This document shows positions 22,012 through 58,239 of a DNA stretch of 64,000 nucleotides, piece after piece. A program made the translations under genes and the position numbers. The notes below the pieces were generated by a model. That model worked only from the letters and a program-made list of their open reading frames with translations. It was not told the DNA's origin and ran no database searches. Within the stretch, counting starts at the first letter, position 1; every line of letters begins with the position of its first letter. Source of the stretch: Lepraria neglecta. Its lineage: Eukaryota; Ascomycota; Lecanoromycetes; Lecanorales; Stereocaulaceae. Location of the stretch: positions 689,501 through 753,500 of the forward strand of contig CM065646.1 of the NCBI GenBank assembly GCA_033220425.1. The letters are read 5' to 3'.

Positions 22012-24675
22012 TTATGACCTTCCACCACGGCTCGTACTCCTCTGACTAACGCCCCTATTCCTCGATCCTAACCTCTGCATCTCAAAATTATCGCCACCCG
22101 TCTCGTTCCTAAAGCTTGCCCTTCTGCGAGTCATCTTACTGCTGGCTTCGCCCCTTTCAACAATCTCATCTTCCTCATGCTTCCTCTCAGACCCCGTAGG
22201 GATAGCAACGTCTGCTCCCTCAACCTCTTCCCCAAAATTCCCACCTACACTTTCCATAGTGAATGGACTCGCAGTCGGTGCATCCAACACGCTCAACTCC
22301 TCAGCAGTGAAATACTTTGGCAGAAGAAAAGTCCTCACGGGAACAAGCAGGAGGATAATGGTCGGGAAGCCGATGGCTGCGATTGTCTGTGTGATTGCAA
22401 ATGTTGCACCAAAGCCGATGAGCTCAAGAGCGACAAAGTACCAGATAGCTTGCTGGCGCTGGATGCGTTTAAGCGGATCAGAAGCCGGCGTGAGATTCTT
22501 ATCTCTCGCAAGATAGAGTAACTTCAGCATAATCCCATTCGCCTGTAGAGCTTGCACCCCCATAACAAAAAACAACCCCGCAAGTACACCTCGTGGGATG
22601 AGATTTAAAACCACGAGCAGCGGTCCGGTCATAGTACCTAGCGTGAGCAATCCCTGTGCAAGGTTGGAAACGCGTTGCTCGACGACGTGATCGACGACAC
22701 GAGCTGTATGGCCTTTGGCCGCGCCGGATTCAGATTCGTCGGTTACTTGGCGCGTGACACAGAGAGCGTTGGTGTGGAAGGGCGCTTGGGGGATGAGGCC
22801 GTTGGGGAATGGGATGCCAAGGAGGCCGGCGACGCCGGTTGTGAGGCCCAGGAGGAAGATGTCCCAGTGGAAGCCGGCGGGTTTGCGGAGGGGAAATTCG
22901 GTGCCTTGGGCTATTAGAGATGAGACTGCACGCGAATTAGCTATTTGTTCATCGGATGAAAGTGGTAAGAGAAACTGCAAATCTGTGCTTGAATTGCGAA
23001 GTGGCAGTCATCATGTGTATATGATTCGCTCTTTTCTCACGCTGGTATGTAGATATAGCAGCATAAAGGGTGAAAATCGTCATCACAAAGCATGAAAGGA
23101 GCAGACGAAAAGGAACGGGTGTGCTGCAGCAACCGCAGCGAGAGCAGCGATTAGCCTGTGCAAGGATTTGGGATGAAAAAATTCCTAAAAAGCTGGAAAG
23201 GCATTTTGGCGGAAAGATAACGAAAAGGAAAGCTCACCATTGTGATCGAAATAGAACAGAATAGTCAGGAGAACGGCGAACGGTATGGCAATGAAGATGT
23301 CTGCAACGTCGATATCCCAGAAATGAATGAACCATCCACGATCCTGTGTAGGGAAGAAGGCCTTGCTGGTAGGTAGCGTCGCAAGATCAACGTCCTTCAT
23401 GTGCCCGAAATGGACAAATCCGGTAAAGAAGATGATTGTAAGCGGTGTTCCGTAATCTTCGATGAATTTGCGAACATGGCGTTGGAACAGGTTACTGCCT
23501 CCGATGACACCACCTGCGTAACCAAAGCCCAGGACAAGTAGTGAAACCATGATCGAAAGGTAAGCTGCGGCCTCACCCGAAATGCCCCATTGGCGGGTAA
23601 GTACCTGGATGCCTTTCTGCAGGTAGATAAAAGCGACGTAGAAACCAAAGATGTCGCAGCTGAAGCGGGTGACATATTTGAGGCCGTTGCAGGCGTTGGT
23701 GAACGCTAATGCCCAGTGCATAAGTAGAGACCATCTGTTTGCAGGTAAGCCTTAGGCTAGAGGACAGCATTAGCGTCGTGAAAAACGCACAGTCCAATCC
23801 AGCACATGAATGCAAAGTAATTTGTGCCGCGAGGGGTGATGATGTCGTAGACCGTATAGTTGAAGACCGTGATTGGACCTGCAAGTGCATTAGGAAAGTT
23901 CCTCTGTCAATTCGAGATAGAGAAATTTGTACCGGTTACACCAACAATTACAAGTGGCTGCGCAGCAAAAACGGAGAAGACCACCGAGCCCAGGACGGAA
24001 GCTAGGAGCACTTCATTGACGCCGAAGCTCATATCCGTTTTGGTGAACATATCCAGCGAAAACGCGAGGGCTGGCAAGATACTAGAAGAACCATTAGTGG
24101 CGGTCGTCGACCGCAGGACGAGCTGCAAAGCAGGTAATTGAGCAAGGTGTATGTCGAAATCATGGCTAGATAGTGCTTGAATGTGGAACAATGGAAATTG
24201 CTCAAGGCAAAACTACACGAGCATCGCGCGGAAAGGTGTTGTGCAAAATAAAAGTTGATGTTGCACAGATATTCTGGGTTCATACTTTGCCTGGTGATAA
24301 TGGTCAGCAACTTTCCTCTTGTAGAAGAGTCTGAACGAGGAAACGCACAAAATACATGTAGACAGTAGCAGGGATAACACGATAATTCCAAGCATCCCTC
24401 CAATCACTCCAATAAAATGGAGCTCTTCTCCTGACATCATTAATCATGCCTCTAAAAAGGCGAACCTTCCACCACCGTTTGTCGATGTTTGATGCATTAG
24501 TCGAGACCTGGGCTATCTCATTGGACAGGTTCTCTTCGCTCTCTGGTTGTCCACAAGAGCGTGATGAGATGAAAGGCAGGCGTAGCTGCCATGGCTTCTT
24601 TCTAGTGCTGCTTGTCGATCGAGGGTTAGAGGGGTGGATGTGGGCCCCGGAAGGCAGCCTGTAGGGAGAGCTCAT
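22012..24675 (-). CDS. BOR1-like anion (borate/bicarbonate) exchanger
   Basis: Exons: 24675-24349, 24081-23933, 23878-23791, 23734-23238 and 22925-22012, about 658 residues. Landmarks are VIPATVYMYF, ILPALAFSLDMFTKTDMSFG, AAQPLVIVGVTGPITVFNYT, GTNYFAFMCWIGLW, GYAGGVIGG, GIPFPNGLIPQAPFHTNALC, GPLLVVLNLIPRGVLAGLFF and AIWYFVALELIGFG, all typical of the SLC4/BOR1 family. These plasma-membrane proteins export borate in yeast. The C-tail is hydrophilic, Glu/Ser/Arg-rich. Three introns fit perfectly; 22926-23237 is long (312 nt). The first intron (about 267 nt) is the weak point: GT right after MYF does not keep phase, while a GC donor two bases later does. Either that intron is non-canonical, a tiny exon was missed, or there is a lesion. 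Confidence 0.82.
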
Positions 24676-25801
24676 TGTGACATTCGATTCACAAAATACA
24701 AAATTAGTGCAGTGATCTATGAAACATCAAAATGAAGCGTTATGAATGCAGAGGGATATTTGAGCAGCCGGGTCTAAAAAATGTTGAAGTTTGAAGCCGT
24801 TTTCCCGGCCGTTTCTTCGTCTTAGCGTCTTAGGACTTGGCTCCGATACTTGGCAAGGGAAGCTACGTCTTCTAAAAAAACGCTGATCTTGATCAATGCA
24901 CCTGAGCGTCAACTGTCACACCGTCGGTCTTGGTTGCATACCTTCCATCTGGAAAGGTCCCCGCATGCTCACTCTGCTGCATAGAGAACAAAATACAGCA
25001 GAAGAGGAATAACGGAGGCGCGAAGATTCTCCACACTCTACCTAATATCTATTTCTGCAGTTGATGTATACCCAAGTTAGCAGCGAAAATTGTATAGTCA
25101 CGGTCCCGGTGCACAAACTTACCTTTAAGGAAAAGATTAAGGTAGTGCTTAGGGGAAACGCCAGTTTTCCCGGCGGCATCACTACATATTGAACCTACGT
25201 GATAGCACAAAATAATTGAGGCTTGATTTCATAACTCAAGTATACTATTGTACACTAGATGTCATATTCTAGGTGAGATCGTGGGAGAGCAAGAGCCAAA
25301 ATGCCCCAGAATAAATCGAAACACATTAAACAGCATATCAAAGAAAAAGGTACCTTCGCGTGCCTCTTCCTTTAGGGAGTTAGCTGCAATCAGGTACACA
25401 AGATAAGCTTTTGATGGCGTCATTAATAGCTTTGATATCTTGGCACTGACTCGCACAACGGCAAACAAACAAACAAGTTCATTCTGCCTTGAGGGTCGAG
25501 AACGGGAGCATAATGGCGTTATTTAAATTAGTCCAAGCGGGTAATTCATATGCCGGTAAATGCCTAGAGGTACCTCGAGGCGCAGAGACTGGTGAGCGTA
25601 GCCATCCACCAATAGGGTGATCGACAATTCAATCGTGCTTGGATCCGTTACCTCCGACACGAACTTTACCATCTATGTACGCATTATTAATAATCTCGTA
25701 CTCGTCACGACGCCTAGACACAGTTTTAAAATCTCTCCGATTGCGCTCATCTTCGAGACCAAATTTGGCGGGAGAGATCAAATGAAGTGCACTACCTGTC
25801 A
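24676..25801. promoter_or_regulatory. Divergent region between BOR1-like gene and Zn2Cys6 regulator
   Basis: 1.1 kb separate the two start codons. No ORF here has support. It contains the promoters of both genes; no individual site is certain. Confidence 0.4.
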
Positions 25802-28800
25802 ATGACGTCTACTCAGAGCCATTCAGGCTCGTCAGATGGGGAATATGAAGATGATGCGGCCATGCCAGAGGCGCACTGGCAGTCACAACAACAGATTTCA
25901 GCGGATCCATCACCATCCATAGACGGCAGCGCGCCCTCCTCAGCTCAGGCTGCAAAACCTGCCATACCAATGCAAAAACGCAGGCGCGTGACCAGAGCCT
26001 GCGATGAGTGTAGACGGAAGAAGATCAAGTGCGACGGGAAGCAGCCTTGTACACACTGTACAGTCTACAGCTATGGTCAGTGGAACACCCAAATGCTAAC
26101 ATGAAATCATGGAATGCTCTCTGGCGTGCGATCGCTGACCTTTTGCTCTCAGATTGCACCTACGACCAGCCTTCGAATCGGAGACGCAACCCTGCTCCCC
26201 AGTATGTCGAAGCGCTGGAAAATCGATTGCAACGAGCCGAAGCTCTCCTGAAAACTGTCCTCCCCGATGCCGATCTAAGCGATCCCAATATAAACATCGG
26301 AGTCCCACAGCGCATGCATTCATCAATAGAACAGGAGCTGCAGCCGACACAGTTAGGCCAGGCTAGGCCTTGGGTGCCTCTTGAAAAGCCTCAACAGGGC
26401 AGCGATGGAGAGAGAGAATCAATGCTAGAGTCTATGGTGGCAAACACGGGCTTATTGGACCTTGACGATGAAGGCAACTGGGATTTTCACGGGCACTCGT
26501 CAGGTCGTGCGTTCTTAAAGAAAATGCGGGAACAGTTTGGTGACTTGGTTGGAAAAGACTCGTCAAACGGTCGAGCACCGTTGACTTTCGTGGGATACAA
26601 AACTCTTTCGCCGTCCATGGACTCGCCAAAGTATTCAGTCGACTCTCCCTTGGCTCGGAATCTGCCAATCACCCATGAATTACCCGCAAAGCATTGTGCA
26701 CGACTACTGTGTGAAAATGCGTTGGATGACGCTGGTGCTATGATACGAATTGTGCACCAACCGACCTTCTATGCTATGTTTGATCGAGTGTACGATACTC
26801 CTAATGAAGGGCTTGGAGACGAGGAAAATAGATTCGTGGCGCTACTGTATGGTGTGATAGCACTAGGCGCACTTTTTGCCAGAGCAGAACAGAGTCAATT
26901 GATGAAAAATGGCTACGAAGATGCCATCGATCAAGGGTGAGTGAAACCGATGGATATACTAGGAATTGCACAATGACCATCTATCAGATACCACTGGTTC
27001 AGAGTTTCCCGTCAACTGGTTGATTTGACTGATTGCCGGGACTTGACATCGCTGCAAACAATTTTGTATATGATTATGTTCCTGCAATCGTCAGCACGCC
27101 TCAGTACGTGCTACTCCTACCTTGGCATTGCTCTCAGATCTGCCATACGCATGGGTCTGCACCGTTCAGTTCCCAATACGTTCAACCCTGTGGAAAGGGA
27201 ACTCCGAAAGCGCATGTTCTGGATAATTCGAAAATTGGATATTTACGTGGGTGCGCTGCTTGGGTTGCCTCAAATGTTAAGCAACGATGACGTCGACCAA
27301 GAGATGCCACTGGAAGTCGATGATGAATACATCACCTTGGAAAAAATCTGCCCAATGCTCCCTGGAAAATTGTCGATTTTTGTGGCGTTCAATGCCCATA
27401 CTCGATTAGTACAAATATTGGCCAAGACAGTCAAATACATCTATCCTATCAAAGGAAACGACCATTCAAGAACTAAGAACCCCCAATCATATGTGGTAAA
27501 CCACTCGAAGATCCGGGAAATCGAGCAAGACTTGCAATCATGGATGGAGAAATTACCAATGCCTTTTAGACCCGGCGAAGAGGCAACACCTGAGTTTATG
27601 AGGTACCATTTGTTCTTTGAGAAATTGTGAGCTTATACTGATTTGTGCTTTAGGATACGGCACATTCTACGTATGGTGTACGCCCATATTCAAATGTTTC
27701 TCTATCGTCCGTTTCTTCATTACGTTTCCCGGTCAGTCCAGGCCAAAATGGTCGACAAGCGCTCGTATGCCTGCGCTGCAGCCTGTGTGAGCGTTTCTCG
27801 CAACATCATTCACTTGACCGCCGAGATGAAAAAAAGAGGATTGCTTGTTGGCTCATATTGGTTCTACATGTACACGACCTTCTTTGCAATCATATCTTTA
27901 CTGTTTTATGTCCTCGAAAATCCTCAAAGCTCCACTGTCGAAGACATATTAAAAGATGCGCACGAGGGAAAAGACACTTTGGCTGGGCTTGCTGCGAGAA
28001 GTATGGCAGCTGATAGATGCTCGCAAATGTTGAATGTAAGAATAGCCCCCCCTCTAGATCCACAATGTGTGCTCATGACCGTTCTTAAGGGTCTCTTCGA
28101 AATGATTCCTGGCAAGCTACAAGAGGTTCGAAATTCATCCTCGCAGAAGAAGCGGCAAGCACCTTCACAACTACCTTCAGCAGCATCACGTACAGCGCAG
28201 AGTGCACTGGAAGTACCCCTAAGGGCAATGTCAAACAATGCCAATACTCCTATGCGCCGCGCGAGCGACTCCCCTACTCAGCAAGACTCTTGGAAGCGGA
28301 CTTCAACACATCAAGAATCCTCAAACCTTCGCCACCAGGCCGTCAACAACGTGGATTCGCAATATCGTCGGGGTTCGCAGGATCCCTATAGCTCTTCGAA
28401 TCCTGACAGCACGGGCATGCAAACGCCGAATAGCCCAAGCAGCTCCATGCCATCAAGCACAACTCAAGCCTCCTTCGGCATGCAAAACCCGTTCACTAGC
28501 CAAGTCGTCCCTGATCTATCCGCTATGATGTTCCCTTCAACCGATCCGTTTGCTTATCCCAATCAGCCTATGACAACGCTTGAGAATCGGCAATTCATCA
28601 AGCAAGAGAATCCTATGGACTCTGGTATCTACAACCTAGCGCCTACCACTAGTGCCTCTTACGATAGTCTTAATTCACAGATGTTTGGCGGAATGCCGCC
28701 GTATCTGATACAAGGACAACAACCCGGTTTCGGCATGCAGAGCATGAGCAGCGCCGGCCCCACGGCTACTTCCATGTCAATGGACGCGAGTGGATGGCCG

Positions 28801-28899
28801 CAGCAGCCGCAAAGATCGGGAGGTACGCCTGGCGTCAATTTTGATCAGTTATTTGGCGAAGATTGGGGAGGGTGGATGAACCAGGGCTACCAGCAATGA
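25802..28899 (+). CDS. Zn2Cys6 transcription factor with fungal-specific middle domain
   Basis: Exons 25802-26075, 26153-26936, 26988-27602 and 27654-28899 join in frame to 972 residues. The first intron splits the zinc cluster, which reads [15 protein letters not shown], then [12 protein letters not shown], with all six Cys present near residues 69-97. A linker and a short coiled coil follow ([18 protein letters not shown]). The Fungal_trans domain spans about 270-600, with [19 protein letters not shown] as its core motif. The C-terminus is Gln/Ser/Pro/Met-rich, probably an activation region. The zinc cluster and following [11 protein letters not shown] look like the Asg1/FarA-type regulators known from stress and fatty-acid control; I am not sure which, so no symbol is given. 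The start is the ATG giving an acidic Ser-rich leader. Confidence 0.9.
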
Positions 28900-29952
28900 C
28901 CAGTGCTGAGCAACAGTCCTAGGGATATAAACGATCACAGCCTTACTGTTTCAAGGAGGGATGGCTAATGAATTCACGTGGTTCTGTACTGTACATAGCT
29001 TGACGTAGCGGGGTGGTTTGCTGAGCCACGGAGTACGCGTCACGCAAGGGATATTGGACATTGGCGGCAGCTCCTGTTTCGATGAGACACCTGCTAGTCA
29101 GGTAGAAATCTTACATACATTGATCTTGCGAGCGAATACGCCATTGTATTACTATTTAGCGAGAAGCACATTATACTTCGATATCTTCTCTTATTCCCAT
29201 AGCAAATACGGTCTCGTGCGATCCGTTACCATGAAACCCACAGAACAGAAACGCAAAGACCCATTAGAGTATGTAAAACTGATGCTTATCCACTTCTGCC
29301 GTGCCCAGAGATCGACGAGGGTCTTAAAACCACTTTTTCTGGACTCAACGCTCGAGATTGAGTACGTTTTGGTACGTTTTTTAGGGTTCGTAACGTTGCC
29401 TCGTTGCAGATTATGCAGTTCTGGATGCTGCACTACCAAATTTTGCTTCATCGAGGGTCTGCCTACAGGCCCTCTTACTGGACGATTGATAAGCCACTGC
29501 ATGTCGATCCAAAGCTTGAAGGCAGTCCCAAAGCGTTCCGCTCGGAGAAAGAATTGGCAAAGCGGGCCAAGCGAACCAAGACCGGGGCCTGGGCCCATTC
29601 TGGGCGAGAATTCAGATGGACAAAGGGGGTGAAATCAAAGGGGCTGTGTTATGCAAGTAGTGCTGACTAGTGACAATAGACCGAGTCCCTTATTTGCTCG
29701 AATGTAGCCTGCCAAGATTTTCCGAAGAATTAAAGTTCCGCTCAGTCTTGGCAAAAATTCGCTCGCCTTTTTGCCCTCCCTCTTTTCTCTGGTACTTGCC
29801 TTCTTAATTAACACAACCCACCAAGACATATCCTCTTGGTATCAACAACTTTTCGGTGGTCAAAAATCGCACATATTCTTTCATCAGAAAAGCACTTGTT
29901 CGCGTCTTTTGTCGAATATTGGACTTTGCTTGGCCGATTTTACTTGGCAAAG
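28900..29952. promoter_or_regulatory. pacC upstream region with five GCCARG sites
   Basis: The PacC core site is 5'-GCCARG-3'. Exact matches lie at 29566-29571 (+), 29711-29716 (+), 29747-29752 (-, CTTGGC), 29929-29934 (-) and 29943-29948 (-), all within 390 nt of the pacC start codon; the last two lie in the probable 5' leader. An ORF of 204 codons at 29018-29632 has no domain and is not called. Confidence 0.65.
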
Positions 29953-31876
29953 ATGAGCCAAGAAATGCCTCCCAAAGGCCACTCTGGGCACAATCCTTCA
30001 GACCAACCGTCCTTGCAACAACAACAACAGCCGGGTGCCCCAGTACCACCACTCCAGAGCAGCGCTGACAGCCAGTTTCAATGTCAGTGGGTTGGGTGTG
30101 GCGAGCGTGCCGCCAACGCTGAGCAACTCTACGTTGGTGTTCACCTACTCCGACCGGTAAAACTCGAACTGACCATGACTTTTAGGACCATGTCTGCGAG
30201 AGCCATATTGGCCGCAAGAGCACCAACAATCTCAATTTGACGTGCGCTTGGGGTAACTGTCGCGTTACCGTCGTAAAACGCGATCACATCACCTCGCACA
30301 TTCGTGTTCATGTCCCTCTGAAGCCGCATCGATGCGAATTTTGTGGAAAGGCCTTCAAGCGCCCTCAAGACCTCAAGAAGCATGTAAAAACACACGCTGA
30401 CGACTCTGTCATTCAACCTGGACCAAGTGTGCCCCAGCGTGGTCATTCAAACGGTCACCAGAATGGAGGATACAATGCGCAGCCCCAGAATAAACGTGAG
30501 TAGCCCTCACTACAGTACACAAAACACCCTGCTTTGCAGGGAACTCTCCCTCAACCTGACGTACTTTAGACATGGTGACTGACTTGCAAGCTCTTGCTTC
30601 TACAGCGCAAGGCTTCTTTCCCGAGCATCACCAGCAGCTGCATTCCAACATCCCCATGAGCTATCCTCAACACCAACCTCAAAATGGCTCCGCGAGCTAC
30701 TACGCACCTAGTCAGAGTTATTCCTACGGCAACGTCTCTTACGCCGTCAACAATGGTCCCGACGTTGACGCTCATCCTTCTATCGAGTCTCACAAGCAAG
30801 GACTGGAGTCTGTCCGAAATTTGGTCATGGAAGCTCGTGGTGGTGTCTTCGACCCCAGGTCGTATTCTCAAGTCGGCCCTCGCTTGTCGGCCATTCAAAA
30901 TACCCAGCTTCCGTTCCTTGCAACTCCATCCATGGGCGATTACCAATCTGGAGGAGGGAGCCCTGGTGGTGTTGTCTACGGGCCAACTGCTCAATACGCG
31001 CTTCCTATTCCTAACTTGAGAACCAAAGATGACCTCATGTCAGCCGACCAAGTCTTTCAGGCAATGCAGACAACTGTTTACGATAATCCCAACAACATCG
31101 CTGCAGCAGGTGTCGGTCAGCCTGGTGCTCACTACGTACCAACTATGGGCGGCCCCCGTCAGAGCCACTCTCCCCCTGGACTGCAGATTCCATCTGCGCA
31201 CAATACCGACTACAGCAACGCAGCTGGGACATCTCGGCAATCAAACCACAGCGGAACTCCTGATCTGTCGCCCCCATCGAGCGCCCATTCGAGCCACTCA
31301 CCACGTTCCATGCACGGTAACACTATGTCACCTACTACCCCTGCAGCCATGTATCCAACTCTGCCTGGAGCGTCGTCCAACTCGACAGCCAATGGCTATG
31401 GCTCATCCAACATGGCACCAACCTCCACTCTCGGCTCCCAATTCGACAACCAACCCCGTCGTCGCTATAGCGGAGGCAGACTCCAGAAAGCTCAGCCAAT
31501 CGAGCGCGCTCCCAAGCGTGAAGACGAGATGGATACAGCCGAAGACTCTCCTATGACGCCAAAGAATGCTGCCGTTTCCAGCTCGTCATCCGAGGCTGGG
31601 TCAGTCATCAAGCCCCAAACCCGCCGCAACGTTGACTTCTCCTCTTCCAACCTGGATCCAGCTCTAGGTGGTGTGGTAGCCTCACCCTCTTCAGGCGAGA
31701 TGGACGAGGGAGCCATCAAGGCTAACGAGATGTGGGTCGGCAATGCCCGTACTATTGAGGCATTGAGAAATTGGATCAAGCAGCGACTGGAGAACCATGA
31801 GTACGAGAGCGAAGAGGAGGCGAGCCCTGTGGACAAGGAAGGCACGCCGAGTTTGTATCCTGTGCTTTCCACATAA
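29953..31876 (+). CDS. pacC: pH-response transcription factor PacC/RIM101
   Basis: Exons 29953-30132, 30186-30495 and 30570-31876 give 598 residues. Three C2H2 fingers lie at the N-terminus: finger 1 with C44/C49 and H62/H67, finger 2 with C80/C85 and H98/H102, finger 3 with C110/C113 and H126/H130 ([17 protein letters not shown]), the order and spacing of PacC. In the family the full-length protein is closed and inactive; at alkaline pH it is cut by PalB and then by the proteasome, and the short form binds GCCARG sites. MYPTLPG (about 423) and RRRYSGG (about 460) match the region of the signalling protease box. The acidic tail with NWIKQRLE fits the inhibitory C-terminus. A poly-Gln run precedes the fingers. 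palI lies 3.5 kb downstream. Length is near the usual 600-680. Confidence 0.95.
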
Positions 31877-32631
31877 TTGTGGGGGTTTCACGTCAAAAGA
31901 GGACGATGTCTAGGGCTTATGTCCGCAATGAGGCCTATTTTCATGAGGCGTTGAGTATCTTTTATGCAGTACGGTGGCTTCTTTTCCTTGTAATCATGCT
32001 ATCAAGTGGGCAGGGGCTTTAGGCTTCATTACTAGTTTGCATGCAATACCTTCAGTTTGCCCAAAATTTCGCTCTCGCATATGTAAGAAACGTGATAAAC
32101 CAAGGGCGACTAGTCAATTATATGTTCACTTGCAGCATCATTTTACTCCTGGAAGTCCTGATAACTTGCCGTTCGAGTAGCGGAGTAAACAGGATCTCGT
32201 CCTCAGAATTATGAGATCGATAATGAACTCACCGTGCTGAAAGAATGAAATTATAGACCGATGCGGAGCATTGCGTGGTAGTACTTGTCCCGGGTAAGAG
32301 CGGGAAAATTGTTAAAGCATGATCTCTCGAAGCCGTGGTCTTGTCTATTTGATTCTTCATCAAGTAGAAGTGGCACGGTTGTCTGTTTCCTTGAGCAAAC
32401 AACCCTCTGCTTTCTGGTCCTCTTGAGCAATCCACTGTTTACTTGCTGCTGACTTTGAACAAAGATGGAGTCACGACGTTAGAACAATCTAAACAGCAAG
32501 GAACCCCAATGAGGTATAGTGTTCTATGTATAGTTCTTCTCTAAGCTGAAGCAGTGAGCTGAGTGATAGCATTATGCTGTATGACAGCCATGCGCTTTAT
32601 GATCTATAAGAGAAGCAACATACCCTGCGGC
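31877..32631. other. Convergent intergenic region, pacC / ABC1 gene
   Basis: The 3' flanks of pacC (+) and the ABC1-like gene (-) meet here. No gene is supported. Confidence 0.45.
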
Positions 32632-34683
32632 TCATCCTTCAAAGACACCATGGTTCAACTCGACCCCAAAATCCTTAGCGATCTTCTTCATCTGCTCTTC
32701 CATATCATCCTCCATCCCTCCTCCAAAACCAAAAACCTGCCTTATCTTAGAGGCGTAGAAAACTACATCGCTGCTCAACATCACGAATTTGAAAATCAAA
32801 TGGCGTCCGAAATTCTTAGCCTTCTCTGAATAGCTTAGGTCCGGGTCATCGACTAGGCTTCGCGAAGCCCAATTGCCTGTTATTTTAATCCGATTGACGG
32901 GCGAGCCTAGGAATTGGTTGTTTCCTTGCACGATGCGAAGGTTGCGGCCGATGAAGATGAGCTCTTTGGGCCATTTTGTCTCGTCGCCGAGGACGTCGCG
33001 GATGCCTTTGCGCATCTTTTGCTGCATTTCGAAATAGCGTTCCTGTTGTTCTTTACCTGATAGGCCTTTCTTAATGCTATCCGACGTAGTGTTGTCACCG
33101 CCGGTATATGGACGAAGTAAAGTAGCGCTGGCAAAAATATCTGCGTTATTGATACCCCAGGATTTGACTATTTCGTTGAGCGTCTTGTTGTCGAATGTCA
33201 TTAGGCTTTTCCAGAATAGGCTGTATTGGTGCCGGAATTCTGGCTTCATGTGTACGTATAGACCGTGGTCTATGAGCACGAGCTCTGGTCTTCCTGATGG
33301 TAATCTTCGGATAAAGATATTGCCGGGGTGGGGATCGCAGTGGACCCATCCCCAGAGGAACATTTGCGCGGAGAAGAGATCTATCATTTCGGTCATGACG
33401 GCTTTCAATGATAGACCGAGACCGCCGGTGCCGTCTGAGCCTTTCCACCACTCTCGGTCAGGCTTCAGCTTCTCATCTACGAGATTGCTGCGCACTATGT
33501 CCGCAACTTCCTCCTGCCTGGGAGGATCAAGAGGCGCGCCACCGCACCCGGGGCTGCCTTGTCTCCATCTGCCTTTCCACGGTTTGGTAAGATTCTCCTT
33601 GTCCCATAACCGTACACCTTCGATCCACTCTGCTGTCATCACTCGCCTGGAGCTCAATTCGCGATACACTTTCGGAACGTAAACTCGTCCACGTAATCGG
33701 GGTTCTCCCGCCACCAGTTTTGCCATTCGCTCTGCATTGTCCGCCTCATTTACAAAATCTGTCTCGAGTAGTAGTCTTTCGGTAACGAATGGGACCAGGG
33801 TGTATAGAGGCAAATCGAACCAATATGTGTATATTCGTGTAACTGCTCTGGGAGAGCGGTACATTGTTAGCATTCAATGGCATATGAAGGGGCGTATGAT
33901 TCCCCACTTGAAAGCCCATAGGTCCCATCCCACTTGCTGAGCAATCTCTCGTTTCTGGACCTTTATAGCAACCTCATTGCCATCCGGCAATCTTGCCCAG
34001 TGGACTTGGGCCACACTAGCACTTGCTCTTGCAGTCCTTTCCATAACACCATTGTCTGGGTCTCCGCTGAAGCTGACCCCGAACACCTCTTCCGGAGATT
34101 TCCCAAAGTCTTCTCTAATGACCTGTTCAACATCTTTCCAGGAATTTTGCGGAGCGTCATCGAACATTTTGGCAAACATCTTCTGAAACTCTAGAGGCAG
34201 CACAGCAGACTGCATGGCAATTGCTTGCCCGATCTTGAGGTATAGGCCGCCATTTGCTTTGAGCAGGTCGGCGAGACGTTCTGCACTGCGAGCGTGAAGG
34301 GCGGCTATCGAGGGAGCGAGAGGAGGATTTGCTCTGAAATTGATTTTGTAATCCAAGGCCACAAATAGGCCCAGACCGAAGGTACGAGCACTTCGGGTTA
34401 TGGAAGAAGCATAATATTGCCTGTCGAAACCGTAAATGACACCTGTGCCGAGGGCGAGGTAGAAGAGACGTCGAGCCCATCTTCGTGTTCGACGGTAGGT
34501 TTTGGCTGGAGTTGCTTTACCTAGAGAGCTTGGGGAAGGAGGAGTAAATGGTTGGAATTTTTGGGTTTGTAGAGATCTATGAGTGAAATTTGATATGAGT
34601 GTTCCTCCTCTTCTTCTGAATGGATCGAGGTCCTTTGATTTTCTGAGGCAACGTGCACAGAGCCCTAAGGCAGGATTAATCAT
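32632..34683 (-). CDS. Mitochondrial ABC1/UbiB (ADCK) kinase-like protein
   Basis: Two exons, 34683-33908 and 33847-32632, give 663 residues; the 60-nt intron has GTGGGG/CCCAG ends. The Arg-rich N-terminus (residues 1-70) followed by one hydrophobic segment (about 72-86) suggests mitochondrial import and inner-membrane anchoring. Family signatures: KxGQ at 150-153 in LKIGQAIAMQS, the Ala-rich loop as ASASVAQVH, the VAIKVQ lysine, FVNEADNAERM, HCDPHPGN (catalytic loop) and LIDHG (metal-binding loop). The group resembles yeast Cqd2/Mcp2 and human ADCK1 more than Coq8, judging from the long insert and C-terminal extension; this is inference. Family members affect coenzyme Q distribution and mitochondrial lipid balance. 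It lies between pacC and palI with no known link to pH signalling. Confidence 0.9.
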
Positions 34684-35415
34684 TTCAGGGACGAGGACGG
34701 AGCCCCAAACGTTCCATGCAAGCTGTGATAGATGTCTCCCTACATCTACATGATGACGGTGAGATTTCCGCAGGTTCCCGGGCTGAACCCCTGTCCACTA
34801 CGGTGGACTTCAGGGAGCATCGGCTGTTCCTGGGCCTTGGCAGAACAAGCAATACGAAGCTCTACGAAACGTCCAATCTTAGAATTTGGGGATTCGGCAC
34901 AGAGCTCCGTGAACGGTTCTTTCAAACTCTTTTCAACTGCTTCACAACTCCTTTTTCACTCTTTTGTTTCATTCATTCGCGTCGCTCCTTTCTCACACAT
35001 AGTCACCCATTTGAAACACCGCCCAAAATCTCACAGCCAGTCAATTGCCCAGACACCATCTCCCACACTAGAACCTTAGGCCCGGAGCTTTAACCAAACC
35101 GCCACCAGCGCGGTCACACTTGCGGCCAACCTCCATATCAGGGAAATCCACCTCCTCTCCCAAGGTTCGTGGGGCAGTTGTGCTTCTTCCAACAACTACA
35201 ACATTTAATCGTGACACCACGCTGCAATGCATGGTCGAGCCTCGAGCAGAGCGAAATAGCTTTCGCCAATGTGCTCGCAAATACGTCGGCTGGGCTCATT
35301 AAGCCCACAACGAGATCCAAACGCAACGAGGTGCAGGGACACCACGTCGCTCTGATAGGATTACCAGCCAGCTGCACCTTCTTACTCTCGCTACTCTTAG
35401 AGAACTACATTCGCA
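34684..35415. promoter_or_regulatory. Divergent region between ABC1-like gene and palI
   Basis: It holds the promoters of both genes. One PacC-type site (CTTGGC, 34836-34841) lies about 575 nt before the palI start. Overlapping ORFs at 34716-35093 and 35068-35606 have no protein features. Confidence 0.45.
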
Positions 35416-38057
35416 ATGTTACGACCAGCAACACCTCTGACGGTTCTCTTTTTTGTCGCATTCGTACTGCTACTTCTATCGACTATCTCGACACCTATAA
35501 TCAAAGGCATACCACTTGCATCCTTCAATGGAGTCACTTTCGGCGTCTTTGGATACTGCAAAGCCTCAGGCTGTACAAAGGAAAAGATTGGGTATTCTGT
35601 CGGTAAGTGAACATATCATATCATATTATATGCATGTGGCCATTGGGGTCAATGCATACCAGGGCCTGGCTTCTTGGAAGATACGAGCGTGATCTTACGC
35701 CATGCATGAATGCGATTGTCTAGTCTTGTGGTAGGGATCTATGCTAACGTTTTCTCTATAGATCCGAAGAAGCTCTTTGGCAATTCCAATGACAACTCCG
35801 CTTTTTCGCTACCGACGAACACTCGCTCTGATCTGTCCGCGATCCTCATAGTCCACCCAATCGCAGCACTTCTCACACTAATATGTTTAATTCTGGCTGC
35901 TACCTCTCACTTACATTCGCCATCACACTCTCCGCGCTATCTTCTCGGTCTTATCATTCTCTCGGTACCAACGCTATTGATCACGCTGCTGGCATTCTTG
36001 GTGGATATTCTACTCTTCTTTCCGCACGTGGCATGGGGAGGATGGATCGTTTTGGCGTCGACAATACTCATTCTGGCTAGTAGCATCGTGACTTGCGCAA
36101 TGAGGAGGACTCTGGTTAGCAGGAAGGCTCGGAAGAAGCGAATAGCAGAAAATGCGGAGATGAATGGAGAGAACTTCTATGCGCGACAAGCCGCACCCCC
36201 AATGATGGCCGTGGATCGGGCTGAATCTCCACCTCCGTTGCCGCCTCAAGCACAAATGAGTGGAGGCTTAGGATCAGACAAGCTGCCAAAGTTCGCCACC
36301 TTCGAGACGTCAACCGGCAGCGAGGATGACAGAACACCACTTAATCAACGAACGCCATCTAACAAAACGTTGCCAAGTATGCCTAATGGTAGAGGGGGAT
36401 ACGCCGAGGATGGGTTCAACAGATATGGTGGACCTGGAAGGGGAGGCCCTGGAGGGATGCGAGGTGGGCGTGGAGGATACAACGTGCCAAGGGATGAGTA
36501 TGGCAATCCTTTACCACCGTCGAACGCTTTCGGTCCAGCGCCACCAGCCGGTATGCGAAGAAATGGATCCGAACCCCCAAGGATGAGACGTCAGTATTCT
36601 GACGAGACAATGAACTCTCAAGGGTCTCGTGGTAGAGGAAGAGGTGGATATGGCCCATCCAGGGGATACGCCAGAGGTGGACCCGGCTACGGGCCGGGAC
36701 CTGGACCTGGAAGGGGCGGCTACGGTAGAGGTGGTATGCCAATGGGAGCGATGGCAGCAGGAGCCGGTGCAGGCATGATGGCGGGAGAATGGAGACAAGG
36801 GCAAGATCGGTCACCACCTGGGTATGGCAATGGCTATCCGCCGCAAGATCGTCCTGGTCAGTATGATGGTCCAAACCCTGCAGGCTACGGCAGGAGTCCG
36901 TCAGCTCCTGGATATGGCAGGCGGCCTTCACCAGGGCCACCTTCAGCACCTGGAGGATACAGACGACCATCTCCAGGACCGCCATCGGCACCTGGGGCCT
37001 ATAGAAGACCGTCGCCCGGGCCACCATCGGCTCCAGGAGGTTATGGGTATGCGAATGGAGATCCGCAAGGACCACCAGTGCAACCGTACAGGAGTGAGCC
37101 TTCTCCGCCGCTACCTGTCGCACACACAGATCCTGAAATGATCGGGCAAGCCGTGGAAATGGACGCGAGGCACGGTAACCCTTCATTGAGGTCACCAAAC
37201 TTCCCTCCACCAATGGGGATGCAGCTTCGCGATAGTGACAGCGACGTTCAAGGGTTCGTGGGTCTTCAACAGCAAAACCAAGCTAGAGACTCGGAAGCCA
37301 GCGTCTACAGCTCCCAAGAGTAAGTCAAACCCCAAGAACACCCTTCACGACCACTTACCCACATATCTATAGACCTTACGTCCCACCCCGCGCAGCGTGG
37401 ACCGGTATCACTCGCGGTGTAACCCCACCTCCCAACACCATCGCCCTCGACCCCATCGAACTTCCCACCCAAACTTCAGGCACCGTCCGAAAACAGAAAC
37501 CTCGCTCATCTTCTCTCCCTAAGAATAACCCACCCGGCCACACACGCAACCAGTCCTCAGGAAACTATTACGAAGACGTCGACCCACGCTTTGCTCCTCC
37601 CGCCGAGTCCCTACCCGTCAACCCCACCAATAATGCTGTCCCCTCCTCTCTCACACCCGGCTACGCCGCCATCCCCGTACAAAGTCAACAAACCCAATAC
37701 CAAAACCCACACCAATCCATCCAGCCAACAATTGAGCATATCGACCCCAGCAGCTCCTACGAGTCTATACAAGACGGCCAAAGGAGTCCTGCTAGTGACA
37801 ACAGTGGTATGACGAGCATCTCCCAACGAGGCGTGAACCCGAATTGGAAGCCACCGCCCGAGAAATACCGCGGCCAAACGAACCTCAGTGTCCCACCAAA
37901 ACAGAGATCAGGGCCGCAGCAACAGCAACAGCAACAGCAACAGCAGAGGGATATGGTACTGCAATCGAACCCAGATTTCGAGCTGGGACATTCTAGGGGT
38001 GCTAGTGCAAGTGGCGGAAAAATCCCACCGCATCTGATGCAGGGGCAAGCTTTCTAA
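35416..38057 (+). CDS. palI: pH-response regulator PalI/RIM9
   Basis: Exons 35416-35602, 35762-37319 and 37373-38057 join to 809 residues. The N-terminus (MLRPATPLTVLFF, then STPIIKGIPLASFNGVTFGV) is the hallmark of PalI/Rim9, a SUR7-like protein with four membrane segments: one at residues 8-27 and three between about 85 and 165 (HPIAALLTLICLILAA, LLGLIILSVPTLLITLL, WIVLASTILILASS). In the family it helps place the PalH pH sensor at the plasma membrane and so acts upstream of PacC processing. The long cytosolic tail is Gly/Arg/Pro-rich, with three consecutive 14-residue repeats of the type YRRPSPGPPSAPGG (about 395-440), an RGG-like region and a poly-Gln run encoded at 37918-37944. The first intron is 159 nt, longer than usual. 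Confidence 0.93.
36895..37045 (+). repeat. 42-bp in-frame tandem repeat in palI
   Basis: Three consecutive near-identical units encode RRPSPGPPSAPG followed by GY, AY or GY; a partial unit (RSPSAPGYG) precedes them. Differences are mostly at third codon positions, so the protein repeat is kept under constraint or gene conversion is not recent. Confidence 0.8.
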
Positions 38058-39421: not shown

Positions 39422-41553
39422 TCAATTCCGCTCTCCACTTCCTAACCTCCAAGCCCTGAGTGGCAAGGCCTGCAATTTCATAGCTGCTGGTCTTATGAAG
39501 CCCCAGAACGTCACAACCCCGATAATCACACATACTATGTTCGTAATGTAATATCCATCTCTCGAGATATCGCAGGTACCTCCACCATCTAGGCAGCGAT
39601 GCTTTTCTGCTTCTGCGACGCAGGAGAAGGGGGCGGTTATGAGGGCGCCTTTGAGGTCTTTTGCGTTGGGAGGGGAGGAGGGATCTGGAGGGTGGCAGGT
39701 CGCGATTGTGAAGGTGTCGACGAGTTTGAGGATGAAGAAGCGGGGGAAGGTGCCGCCGAGGTTGGAGACGCTGTGGAGAAGATTGTTAGCCTTAAGTCAG
39801 ATAGTAATTAGATAGGAGAGAGGACTTACGTAGCAAGCAGAGTCATATAAGTCCCTCCAATGACCGGATCTGCGATTTTTGCGTGGAAAGCTGAGATGGC
39901 GACGAACATGACTGTGCTGGTGAACGTGGAGAAGATGTGCGATCCGATAACTGTGAGGAGATACCATGGTTGTACTCCGTTGGCCGGGAATATCATCACA
40001 GTAAATTGAGCAAGGCAGGCGGCTATGAGACGGCCGATGAAAGCCCAGCACCAAACGTGGATAGGTGGGTTGGAAGTGGACCAGCGACCGGCGTAGTAGC
40101 CTAAGCTGATTTCGAAGGGGAAATCAATCAGGACTGTCAGGGCCATATCTTCTTGGCTGAACCCCTTGTCGATGAGTTTGAGATTTGTGACTGCGTCGTT
40201 GGCTTGGAAGCCGATTTTGGCGATTAAGTGGATTATGATGATGCTCTGAATATTCTTGAGCTTGAGTATGCCGAGCATGCTTTTGTAGACATCCAGGATG
40301 CCGTCTCGCTCTTTGGTTTTATCTTCGCGCTTTAGGACTGCGAGGCCAACCGTTACAATGAGGTAAGCCCATCCTGCAAATTGGAGGTAGCCTCCTAACG
40401 TCATGACGCCTTCGGGGCGTGGGGAGGAGCGGAACCAGCGGTTTGCGAAGTCGGGGGAGTTGAAGGCGAGAAAGACGGTATAGGAGAGGAAGTGGCCGGC
40501 TGTTAGGCCGACAGTCTGTGCGGTGGAGGCGTAGGACAGATTTTGCGGGGAGAGGAGGGTGAGGGCCCAACCATCCACTGCGATATCTTGTGTGGCGCAT
40601 AGGAAGACGAGGAAGAACCACCACCATGTAAATACCCATACTTTAGATCCGTCACTTGCTCCAGCAGCAATCATCATGTCTTTCACACGTCCGCCTAGGT
40701 ATAACATCCCTATCCCAGAGCAGACTTGTATTGGCAAAATCCAGCTCTTTCTCCTTCCCAATTTGGGACTCCAGACTGCATCCACTATAGGACTCCATAG
40801 TAACTTGAGTGAATACGGGTATGATGCTAGCGAGAAAACTCCGATCTGTCCGTACGAAAGATTTTGTTGTTTGAGTAGAAAAGGCACTGATCCTGAAGCC
40901 AATCCCATCGGTATACCCTGTAAGAAATATAGAAGCACCAGAAGCAGAAAATTCCTCCTATCTTGCCTTGGCAAATCGAAGAAGCTCGAATTTGGGTTCG
41001 GCGTCATGGGTGTTTGGGGTGGTTCGTCGTCGAGTGTGAAGCTTTCTCTGCTAAGAAGGCTGGCGGTTTGTGAGGCAGTTGTTGGAGACTCTAAGGATTG
41101 ATGTTTCCGCCGCATTTCGAGGTGGGACTCCATGTTGCCGTTTGCGTGACCGTTTGTGTGGCCGTTTTGGCCTCCCGACGCTGTCGATGAGGGCCGCTCC
41201 GGCTCGCGTAGAGAAGATGGTGTGGATTTTCGGCCCATTTGAGAGTCTTCTGAGTCGTAATCGAAGTCGGAGGGGTGGGCTAAGGATCGAGAATCTTCGC
41301 CGTCAAGGTTCGCTGATACTCTTGGCGAAGGTGATGAGTGGGCTGTCGGTCTAGATTCTGTAGGTAAAAGTTCTTCGTTGTTGGTGTTGTGGTGCCGATT
41401 GTTGGACTGTGAATCTTGTGCTTCTTGCAATATTCGGTTCAGAGGCTCTAACTCTATCTGGCTGGGTGGTTGGTGTATTGGTAAAAGGTTCGATTCCTGT
41501 ATTTCAGGCTGTACAATATTGTAAAGGAAAGAATCGCCGAACGGAGTAGGCAT
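39422..41553 (-). CDS. Acetyl-CoA transporter (AT-1/SLC33A1 family)
   Basis: Exons 41553-39830 and 39770-39422 give 690 residues; the intron has GTAAGT and CCACAG ends. After a hydrophilic Ser/Pro-rich leader of about 190 residues come twelve or so membrane segments. Diagnostic stretches are LLYFLQGIPMGLASGSVPFL, LLWSPIVDAV, GRRKSWILPIQ, ATQDIAVDGWALTLL, FANRWFR and the end motif DGGGTCDISRDGYY. In animals the family moves acetyl-CoA into the ER/Golgi lumen for protein acetylation; yeast relatives exist but are less studied. The end motif lies in exon 2, so the short second exon is part of the gene. It is intact as far as can be seen. Confidence 0.9.
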
Positions 41554-47382: not shown

Positions 47383-48058
47383 GCATTGAAGGTTCAGTCG
47401 GATCCACGATACTTCTATATGCGGGACGGCATATCTGACAGCCGCGCGATATTTTTCCGTAGTAGATTCAATTTCGGATATCGAATGTGACGGCTACCTC
47501 CCCAATGATCCTCCAGGCCTGCAAGCAGATTACTACAATCTGCGAAACCTCTACGCAGCAGATAGCCTAATCCCCGCAGGAAACATGGGTTGTATCTGCG
47601 AGGATCAAGGCTTATACTGCCCTATTGCCACCAAATCCTGGATACAACAAATCTCTGTTCATTGTCTCGCACAGTGCAATTGCGGTCCCAATACTCAAAT
47701 CAGATCTAGCGTTTCGATAAATACTGGAATTACTCTTAAACTCAGGCAAGATTCGTGGGTGGACAACCAACATGCGGACATTAAAGATGGGCCGAATCCC
47801 TTTGGCGATATTGAGGGGTGGTCGACGCACTCGACAATAGTCGAGTCGTGCCCCAGCTGCTCTATGACGGCTGGCTCTAGGATCATATCTAGAGACTCGA
47901 ATGGGAATTGCACCTGCGCCAACAGTTCTAGCATCGCGCTGAGAGATGCTCCTGAAAATGGTGATCCCATAAAATCAGATATTTCGAGTATCTCACCCAG
48001 GGACTCTCCCGAAAGTGGCGCTCCTACAGGATCAGAGACCACAATATCTCGCCAATAG
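47383..48058 (+). CDS. Cys-rich protein, tandem copy 1 (5' end unclear)
   Basis: The frame is open from about 47395 to the TAG at 48056 and includes DIECDGYLPNDPPGLQADYY before the only internal ATG at 47585, so the start is upstream, possibly in an unseen exon. Core: YYNLRNLYAADSLIPAGNMG, CICEDQGLYCP, HCLAQCNCG, DGPNPFGDIEGW and two CxxC-like pairs (CPSC, CTCA). The same core occurs in the next gene, so the two are tandem paralogues. Here the C-terminal part is much shorter and ends in a duplicated sequence (PRDSPESGAPTG / LRDAPENGDP). It looks like an extracellular protein by Cys content, but no signal peptide is visible. It may be a truncated copy. Confidence 0.5.
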
Positions 48059-48138
48059 ATTTACTCATAGAAGGCAGAAATCCTAAACAACCAGGCACAC
48101 CTAACACCTCGCCCATCTCCCCTCTCCACAATCGCGGC

Positions 48139-49122
48139 ATGCTCATCCCATCCGCAGTCGAATGCCACGGCATTCTTTCCCCTTGGCCCCTCAGCGCCCC
48201 ACCTTCCGAACCCCCAGTAGAACTAACACGACTCTACCACAACCTACGCAACCTCTGCACGGCAGACAGCAATGCCCCCACTGGGAACATGGGTTGCACC
48301 TGCGAAGGCAAAGCTCTGCACTGCCCTCGCGGCACCTCGTGGGAATTCCAACAACTTGCCGACTATTGTCTTGAACAATGCGACTGCGGAATTGGAAGTT
48401 TCAGTAAGTATCTTGACGATGCTACAGAATTGGCTGGCGCTACTATCAATAGCGATGTTCTTCTGTGGTCGGCGTTGACAGCTGGCGATGGTCCAAATCC
48501 CTTCCAGGATGTGCCTTCTGGGATTATGCCTATTGTAGATAGCAATACAGGGACAGGACCGGTGCCGGGCCAGGATTCCTGTCCTGGGACTTGCACGAGC
48601 GTTACGAGACAGTGCTCATACCGCGAAACTTGTTCGTGCTACGCACCTCCGGTTGGCATTATATTCTGGCATTCAGGCAACTGTGGACTGACGAGAAAGT
48701 CCATAGCGTCGCTGACCGCTGCAAACGCTGCTAGTGGCATGGGCGGGCGGAAAGCCAAGAGACAGGAGGATCTAACATCACTCAATGGGACGGCCGCTGC
48801 TCCTGCTCTTGGTTCAAGTGCGACGGCAGATATTCGAATGCCATCATCGTCGAATAGCACATATGGAACCACGAATTCCACTATCGATTGGAATACCTTC
48901 CCCGCGCCATGTAATGAGAGCTATGTTAGCTATGCTTGTGCGAATAGCACGGATAGCATTGTATATGAGCCGATTGAGAATTGGCTAGGTGCGCTGCTGC
49001 CTGAGAATGCGACTGAGATACTGCCGGTGCCAGAGGAGTGGCTGAAGGTTCATGGGATTTCGAGTGATCCGGATAGTAATGCGACTGCTAAGGTGAGGCG
49101 GGGGGATAGTTGGAGATTGTGA
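48139..49122 (+). CDS. Cys-rich protein, tandem copy 2
   Basis: An open frame of 327 codons from ATG at 48139; the frame extends upstream, so an earlier exon is possible. Shared core with copy 1: YHNLRNLCTADSNAPTGNMG, CTCEGKALHCP, ADYCLEQCDCG, DGPNPFQDV. It continues with CPGTCTSVTRQC, CSCYAPP and a C-terminal part with Asn-Gly/Ser/Thr sites (NSTYGTTNST and others) that suggest N-glycosylation, hence secretion. A dibasic-type site (RKAKRQ, about residue 202) could be a Kex2 target. The Cys pattern near CSCYAPP resembles the end of the split Cys-rich gene at 15.7 kb. The family is unknown to me. Confidence 0.65.
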   Translation: MLIPSAVECHGILSPWPLSAPPSEPPVELTRLYHNLRNLCTADSNAPTGNMGCTCEGKALHCPRGTSWEFQQLADYCLEQCDCGIGSFSKYLDDATELAGATINSDVLLWSALTAGDGPNPFQDVPSGIMPIVDSNTGTGPVPGQDSCPGTCTSVTRQCSYRETCSCYAPPVGIIFWHSGNCGLTRKSIASLTAANAASGMGGRKAKRQEDLTSLNGTAAAPALGSSATADIRMPSSSNSTYGTTNSTIDWNTFPAPCNESYVSYACANSTDSIVYEPIENWLGALLPENATEILPVPEEWLKVHGISSDPDSNATAKVRRGDSWRL

Positions 49123-53754: not shown

Positions 53755-54296
53755 GCTGCGAGGTCGATATATTGAATGAGCAAATGTAATGCATGCGTCT
53801 ATGTGGTAATGGAGAGTTGCATGGGATGGAAAAGCATTTTGAAAATAGATGTGTCCAATTTTGGATGCTTGAAAGCTCTTGGATAATTCTTAATATCCGA
53901 GCCAGATTGAACTCGCCAGGAGTATAATTGCATGGGAAAGTGGAAGTTATTCACTCCTTCGGATTAGCATTCTTGTACATACGTTTTACCACAAGGGTAT
54001 CTTGGGTTTTGGTCCAGTTCACTTTGTATGCGGATTGAGTCAGAGGAATGGCTTTCGTCTATTCCCTAATCGTAAAAATTTCCAAAACAGTGGCAATATA
54101 AAGTGGCTGAGACCAAAGTGTCAAGATCGACAGAGGAGGACTAGCGCCAAAGGTACGTCAGTCCCGTTGCCTCGTCTGAAATTCCAAGAATCGTCAACAA
54201 ACCCTCCCACAACAACCACAGCACAACAATGGCTTCCACAATCCTTACAATCCATCTCTCAGCGCCCTAGCTTCCAAATTCTCAACCGTCCACACC
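53755..54296. other. Intergenic region, GH3 gene to Scs3/FIT gene
   Basis: GH3 3' flank and promoter of the next gene. An ORF from 54002 overlaps the Scs3/FIT gene in another frame and is rejected. Confidence 0.45.
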
Positions 54297-55372
54297 ATGG
54301 CGTCCAACCGCCGCAACGGCGCCAACACGCCCAAACCCTCAACGCCCATCGAACTTCCCGAACCAGCCACCCGTCCCACCTCCATCTCCAGCTCCACACC
54401 CACCCCTCACCAAGACAGGGACACCACAACCCACTGGATAACCGCCCTCTTCCCCACCCCCCTCGAAACCCTCCTTCTATCAACCTATCCCGCCCTCCTC
54501 CTCCTCGGCTCCCTCTTCTCAACCCTCTCCCCAACAACCCGCAGCGCGCCCTACAACCCCACCACACAATCACACCCCCCTTCCTCCGCACCCTCCTACT
54601 TCGCCCTAAAATCGAACCTCCTAAACACCTATTTCGTAAAGATAGCCTGGTTCTGGGTCTCGCTTGCCTATCTATTATTCTTGGTCGTACACCCTGCAAA
54701 TGGACCTGGCCTACTAGGGAGCAGGGGACTGGTGTTGACGCCGAAGCGGTTACGCGGGGTGCTGAGATGGGCTATTGTGACGATGTGGTGGGGAGGCGTG
54801 ACGCAGTGGTTTTTCGGACCGGCGATTATCGACCGCGGGTTCCAACTCACAGGTGGGGCGTGCGAATTGGCGAGTCAATATGAAGGAACGGGCGGGGGAG
54901 AGGATTTCGTGACGGGACAGGCTTGTAAAGCTGTTGGGGGGACGTGGAGGGGTGGGCATGATATTAGTGGGCATGTGTTTATACTGGTGCTGGGGAGTGC
55001 GTTTTTGGGATTGGAGGTGCTACCGATTTTAATGGGGTTGAGGGATGAGAGGAGGGTTAGGGGGAGAGATGGAGGCGTGGGAGCGCCTGAGAGGGAACTG
55101 GTGGCCCAAGAGCAGGAGGGACGGAAGGTGGGGTTGGGGTTACCCTTGGGGGTTATGGGGTTGAGTGCTTGGATGTTGCTTATGACGGCTACGTTCTTTC
55201 ATACGTGGTTTGAGAAGGTATGTGAAGTGATTATGCCATTTTGCAGACTTGATGTGCTAACTATTAGCAGTTAACGGGGCTCCTAGTAGCGTTCATGGGC
55301 ATTGTCGTTGTGCTTTTCTTACCGCGAGCAGTGCCGGCTTTGAGGGATGTTGTTGGTATGCCCGGGATTTGA
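54297..55372 (+). CDS. FIT family lipid-droplet protein (Scs3-like)
   Basis: Exons 54297-55217 and 55271-55372 give 340 residues. FIT/Scs3 proteins are ER membrane enzymes that cleave acyl-CoA and support lipid-droplet formation. Seen here: six or so hydrophobic segments (for example TLLLSTYPALLLLGSLF, VKIAWFWVSLAYLLFLVV, IVTMWWGGVTQWFF) and both FIT motifs, GGTWRGGHDISGHVFIL with the first conserved His pair and MLLMTATFFHTWFEK with the second His. The intron falls directly after WFEK and keeps phase. The GC-rich N-terminal 40 residues are Pro/Thr-rich and poorly conserved in the family. It looks intact. Confidence 0.88.
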
Positions 55373-57327: not shown

Positions 57328-58239
57328 ATGGCAGACTCCCTACACGTCCAAAACGTAATCCAAGGCCTCCGTGCCCTACGAGAAGAACCCCTCTCCATCA
57401 TCGGTCTCAGCGAACCCATCTCCGCAGCACCAACCTCCCACCGCACATCAGATGTCTCCGAAGCCGCCTTCGAGAACCCTTCGCCCGCTTCTCTGGAAGC
57501 TGATCTGAGCCATTACAAAGTCCGCTATCCCCTCCCTCTTCTCCATCCAAAAATCAAATTGCTTACAAGCTTACGTACTTAGGAACTCTTCTCCAAACTC
57601 CGCTTCTCCTACCTCGAACAAGTAACCAAAGAGAAGTTCCTCCGCGCCATCGTCGGCGACCCATCCCTCATAGTCGAACACACTGAGAACCTCGAACTAG
57701 AATCCCAGCTTGCTGAAATCAAAGCCGTGCTTAAAGCGCAGAAAGAATATGTGGGTGAAATGGTCAAAGAACTTGATGTGAGGGGAAGGGATTTGAGCAG
57801 ACGCTATGAGACTATTACGTTGCAAACTACCCTCCTTTCATCGCTGCCGCCGCAGATAGAGGAATTAGACCACACACTGGTGGAGTTACGGAAACAGAAT
57901 CAATCAGCAGGCAATGACACGAATGAGACGAATCTTGAGATGGCGCTGCCGTTGCCTGCTACGCTGCAATTGGTTGAGGAAAGGAAAGCGAGGCTGGAGG
58001 AGGTTAATAGGCAGTTGAAGAGCTTGCAGCAGGCGGTGCCGAGGCAGACGAGGGTGCTGGAGAGTGAGGAGAGGGAATTGAGGAAGCTGGAGGGGGAGAG
58101 GGGGAGGGCTGTGCAGGCGGCTAGGGAGGCGGTGGAGAGGAAGAGCGAGGGTGGTGGGGCGGATGAGTTGGAGATGAGGGGGAGGTGGTTGAGGGGTGTG
58201 GAGGGGGCGGTTAGGGGAATGTTGGAGGTGGAGGGTTAG
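57328..58239 (+). CDS. sos7: Kinetochore protein Sos7
   Basis: Exons 57328-57519 and 57583-58239 give 282 residues. The segment DLSHYKELFSKLRFSYLEQV, split by the intron, then EKFLRAIVGDPSLIVEHTEN is the mark of Sos7, which binds Spc7 at the outer kinetochore in fission yeast. The rest is mostly coiled coil (about 95-150 and 195-275, heptads rich in Leu, Glu, Arg), as expected for the family. The GTCCGC donor is non-consensus but is the only one that keeps the conserved motif in frame. The 3' third is very G-rich in codon use (GAG, AGG, GGG) compared with the 5' part, giving a sharp strand skew. Confidence 0.82.

Follow-up and report, generated by a model that had tools for sequence, protein, structure and literature searches.

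The genes for the transcription factor PacC and for the membrane protein PalI, both components of the Pal pathway of ambient-pH signalling, are separated in this genome by 3,539 bp, measured from the stop codon of pacC to the start codon of palI. The linkage is real, and it is probably a lineage-restricted accident of gene order. We consider it likely, with a probability of roughly 0.8, that a genome rearrangement in this lineage brought ordinary pacC and palI orthologues close together, and that their adjacency is without function.

Organization of the pacC-palI locus

The window, the whole stretch of 64,000 bp that was analysed, covers positions 689501-753500 of contig C1 in an assembly of 42.0 Mb and 11 contigs. 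The fungal families Zn_clus, Fungal_trans and SUR7/PalI (Pfam) are represented in it and, together with the GT-AG introns described below, mark the DNA as fungal, most likely from a filamentous ascomycete; a 5.8S rRNA search of the assembly gave no match. The gene order on the contig is pacC, a gene of the ABC1/UbiB family and palI, with the middle gene on the opposite strand, and both pacC and palI are complete. The locus is composed of the following features, in window coordinates:

28900-29952 (+): region upstream of pacC, with five GCCARG (PacC-type) sites at 29566, 29711, 29747, 29929 and 29943
29953-31876 (+): pacC, encoding the PacC/Rim101 transcription factor; 3 exons, 598 amino acids (gene model; Pfam zf-C2H2)
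31877-32631: convergent (3'-3') spacer of 755 bp separating pacC from the ABC1 gene, without GCCARG sites
34683-32632 (-): ABC1/UbiB-family atypical kinase-like gene; 2 exons, 663 amino acids (Pfam ABC1)
34684-35415: divergent spacer of 732 bp, common to ABC1 and palI, with a single GCCARG site at 34836
35416-38057 (+): palI, best candidate for PalI/Rim9; 3 exons, 809 amino acids (SUR7/PalI domain)

The start codon of pacC is at 29953, and 38057 is the final base of the palI stop codon. The three genes contain five introns (30133-30185 and 30496-30569 in pacC, 33907-33848 in the ABC1 gene, and 35603-35761 and 37320-37372 in palI), all of which are of the GT-AG type, and the reading frames are uninterrupted. 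A preliminary description of this DNA had reported pacC and palI as physically linked, about 3.5 kb apart and in like orientation, with one ABC1/UbiB gene between them on the other strand. The gene models, which place both genes within 29953-38057, bear this out in each respect.

The two open frames of the intervening gene match Pfam ABC1 with E values of 3.4e-35 and 1.2e-16. Its protein, queried with the first 259 residues, resembles UbiB and COQ8 relatives, with NCBIfam matches below their cut-offs. The genome contains at least four clear ABC1 loci, of which this is one, and our guess places the gene in the Mcp2/Cqd2 branch.

Several other genes were recognized in the window. The open frames immediately upstream of pacC, on the same strand, belong to a Zn2Cys6 transcription factor (25730-28899, Zn_clus and Fungal_trans). 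PacX is described, in the literature passages covered, as containing a coiled coil and a zinc cluster; the presence of Fungal_trans sets the upstream gene apart from this description, and its identification as PacX is unsupported. About 6 kb upstream of pacC, two open frames on the reverse strand (22012-23751) match the HCO3- transporter family (Pfam PF00955), and the position of an ion-transport gene near a pH regulator is probably due to chance. Adjoining palI on the other side is a reverse-strand frame of the Acetyl-CoA transporter 1 (Acatn) family (39826-41553), which strongly matches acetyl-CoA transporter 1 chains of known structure. Further along the forward strand are two overlapping cysteine-rich open frames (47390-49122), which are alike by eye, have the stretches NLRNLxxADS and GNMGCxCE in common and perhaps represent an internal or tandem duplication, a FIT (fat storage-inducing transmembrane) family protein (54180-55274, Pfam E 7.2e-64), and a frame of the kinetochore protein Sos7 family (57583-58239, Pfam PF20882).

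Identity of pacC and palI

The PacC protein contains three C2H2 zinc fingers near its N-terminus, which start at residues 44, 80 and 110 according to a pattern search and agree with its assignment to PacC/Rim101. In the exon-2 frame of the gene, Pfam zf-C2H2 marks one finger with an E value of 3.3e-8. In PacC/Rim101 proteins, PalA-binding motifs flank the region of the signalling protease. Here, the YPXL motifs YPTL at residue 425 and YPVL at residue 593 are located one on each side of a 14-residue C-terminal stretch at 552, which we take to be the conserved signalling protease region. YPX[L/I] is given as the PalA-binding motif in the title of a cited reference. A search of the whole genome with the fingers returns this locus at 5.6e-71, and the next best match elsewhere has an E value of 3.2e-6. 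The same query found one remote zinc-finger match among contigs of other genomes (32 percent, in archaeal bin L030) and no match among viral contigs; both results are uninformative.

The exon-2 frame of palI matches the Pfam SUR7/PalI domain with an E value of 1.2e-19. Both matching palI exons are above the cut-off in a genome-wide search with the SUR7/PalI profile, at 73.5 and 34.6 bits, whereas two other SUR7 loci outscore them with the same Pfam family, at 155.6 and 137.2 bits. The protein has the layout of PalI, with a membrane N-terminal part followed by a long low-complexity tail rich in Gly, Pro and Arg. PalI proteins are divided into a long class of 476-756 residues and a short class of 225-399 residues (PMC9696871, covered in part); with 809 residues, the protein encoded here is of the long class, yet above its printed upper bound.

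When the genome was searched with the N-terminal part of palI, a single locus was returned, that of the window gene (one candidate scored). A tblastn search of seven loci revealed a weak second relative on contig C8 (E 1.2e-4, 39 percent over 46 columns), which is the best of the five other SUR7 loci compared with palI. That another gene of the SUR7 family is the true palI is less favoured, since the N-terminal search finds the window gene alone and none of the other five loci exceeds the C8 match. As computed from a printed intron table (source covered in part), introns 1 and 2 of palI have phases 1 and 2 both here and in Magnaporthe oryzae MoPALI, and the first and last introns of pacC have phases 0 and 1 both here and in MoPACC; the agreement is weak evidence, because any one phase has a one-in-three probability of matching by chance. 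MoPACC and MoPALI each contain one intron more than the genes described here.

Judged by sequence, the window gene is the best palI candidate, and its orthology is argued from family, length class, intron phases and comparisons within the genome. Both identifications had been called strong in the preliminary description. That of pacC holds on the three fingers, the pair of YPXL motifs and a match far better than any other in the genome; that of palI holds at the level of best candidate, given the domain match and the long class, despite the two higher-scoring SUR7 loci.

Other pathway genes and the chance of linkage

Candidates for the remaining genes of the pH pathway were sought genome-wide as family matches, of which only the best were scored. 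One palH match lies on C8 at 0.68 Mb. Bro1-domain matches are located on C2 and C4, calpain matches on C3 and C5, and the four Arrestin_C matches on C3 (two), C4 and C8. The nine Arrestin_N matches are distributed over C1 (three, at 0.20, 5.38 and 5.68 Mb), C5 (two), C8 (two), C3 and C7; with pacC on C1 at 0.72 Mb, each of the nine is either separated from it by 0.5 Mb or more or located on a different contig. C1 carries two of the six Snf7-family matches, at 0.21 and 4.79 Mb. The genes palA, palB and palF stand as candidates within the Bro1-domain, calpain and arrestin match sets, respectively, with none singled out; the Bro1 model detected no palC, even at E values up to 10. The pacC-palI pair is the only close pathway pair seen among the best candidates scored, which does not prove it to be the only one.

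In a model in which genes of an assumed length of 2.5 kb are placed at random, the probability of a gap no larger than 3,539 bp is 2.9e-4 for the named pair and 0.006 for any of the 21 pairs among seven genes. For this pathway taken alone the latter value is small, and it counts against an accident. Because the pair was chosen after the window had been read, the fairer yardstick is the number of such pairs expected per genome, which is about 1.3 over 100 ten-gene pathways (the number of pathways is assumed).

PacC-type sites and promoters

PacC-type sites were counted as matches to the GCCARG consensus (PMC4446002, covered in part), the only motif counted, and the window contains 82 of them. 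Five are located in the 1,053 bp upstream of pacC, compared with 1.35 expected at the window rate, a count matched in a fraction of 0.002 of 2,000 mononucleotide shuffles. The enrichment is nevertheless modest, because 30 of 1,259 overlapping segments of 1,053 bp (2.4 percent, the pacC upstream region included) contain five or more sites. The spacer between the ABC1 gene and palI contains one site against 0.93 expected (727 of its 732 bp counted). No sites are present in the pacC-ABC1 spacer or in the ABC1 gene, one is in pacC, three are in palI, and three are downstream of palI. The shared regulatory sites of a functional gene cluster are thus not seen, with five GCCARG matches upstream of pacC and one beside palI. 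Furthermore, pacC converges on the ABC1 gene, and the ABC1 gene diverges from palI, so that pacC and palI have no promoter in common. The enrichment upstream of pacC would fit autoregulation of pacC, without extension to palI.

Gene order in other Pezizomycotina

Gene order was compared through the locus numbers of three distant Pezizomycotina, Aspergillus nidulans, Neurospora crassa and M. oryzae, a small sample in which the numbers are taken to follow map order. On this assumption, pacC and palI are far apart in all three species, in contrast to the 3.5 kb found here. The respective locus numbers in the sources, each covered in part, are AN2855 and AN4853 in A. nidulans, where the two genes are likewise components of the Pal pathway and one locus is listed for each; NCU00090 (pac-3) and NCU01996 (pal-9) in N. 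crassa, again like components; and MGG_10150 (MoPACC) and MGG_02630 (MoPALI) in M. oryzae. Aspergillus niger (47049, 52449) and a Fusarium species (UN05739, UN01473) were left out of the count, as nothing suggests that their numbers follow map order, and F. graminearum and G. tritici are outside it, with the pacC tag alone found in the passages covered.

The literature on Pal and PacC was covered in part (PMC9696871, PMC4996508, PMC3712939, PMC4446002, PMC4832277, PMC2718513, PMC12825994, PMC12387645, PMC7392285, PMC6167834, PMC11277687, PMC2171039). Its titles, abstract openings and selected passages contain no description of a pacC-palI linkage that we could find, which is a weak negative.

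Origin and significance of the linkage

It is unlikely that the pair is a block inherited from the ancestor of one class or order and retained, without function, because gene order generally decays slowly over short distances. In favour of such a block, the three compact genes together occupy 8.1 kb and their spacers measure only 755 and 732 bp, which may leave little space for a harmless break, and the class of this fungus may be absent from the species compared. Against it, the far-apart locus numbers in Aspergillus, Neurospora and Magnaporthe imply that their common ancestor did not have the block, unless it was lost repeatedly.

Selection for the linkage, by which a common chromatin domain or neighbouring PacC-bound regions would tune the sensor helper and the regulator together, appears very improbable. 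It would agree with the low chance value of 0.006 for this pathway alone, with the position of the five PacC-type sites 5.5-5.9 kb from the palI start, and with the N. crassa results in the passages covered, where expression of the palI homologue depends on alkaline pH and on PAC-3. Nevertheless, PacC-type sites are not enriched beside palI, an opposite-strand gene of another family sits between the two genes, N. crassa regulates its palI homologue without linkage, and the locus numbers are far apart in three of three species. Least credible of all is that selection has made the two genes of this lineage a pH module, with PacC that binds upstream of pacC also acting on palI over 5-6 kb.

We therefore return to rearrangement in this lineage as the preferred reading, in which pacC and palI would each work as in other Pezizomycotina. 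PalI would assist the PalH sensor at the plasma membrane, the Pal/ESCRT machinery would cleave PacC at alkaline pH, in the two-step proteolysis typical of PacC/Rim101, and PacC would regulate its targets, including its own gene via the five upstream sites. Being adjacent would in itself do nothing: palI has its upstream region in common with the ABC1 gene and not with pacC, and any PacC control of palI would act in trans, as in Neurospora.

The interpretation offered in the preliminary description is thus retained in part. Besides the gene identifications, its statement that Pal/Rim genes are generally dispersed holds as far as tested, with no palH, Bro1, calpain or arrestin candidate within 0.5 Mb on the same contig. 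Its suggestion that linkage may provide co-inheritance or shared chromatin control is unsupported, given the separate promoters, the enrichment at pacC only and the distant locus numbers in all three species. A linkage that proved to be conserved and under selection would be a rare instance in which genes of a dispersed signalling pathway have become physically linked. At present, ordinary pH-pathway genes are documented, and the layout and site counts give no cause to expect joint control, which is a useful negative result.

Comparison with pH regulation in known systems

In the published passages covered, N. crassa pal-9, the homologue of palI, is bound by PAC-3 and its expression depends on PAC-3. 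Since the locus numbers of pac-3 and pal-9 are far apart, this regulation acts in trans. Both genes rise at alkaline pH, and the pal-9 deletion strain grows normally at alkaline pH. The palI gene of A. niger is significantly regulated, which its authors credit to growth rather than to pH, and the same paper describes the pal mRNAs of A. nidulans as not pH regulated. Among the pal and vps homologues and pac1 of T. reesei, pH changed only pac1 and palF, again in the passages covered. Given the N. crassa and A. niger data, some co-expression of pacC and palI is possible. Taken together, these reports indicate that pH control of palI differs among species, and that in Neurospora linkage is not needed for it.
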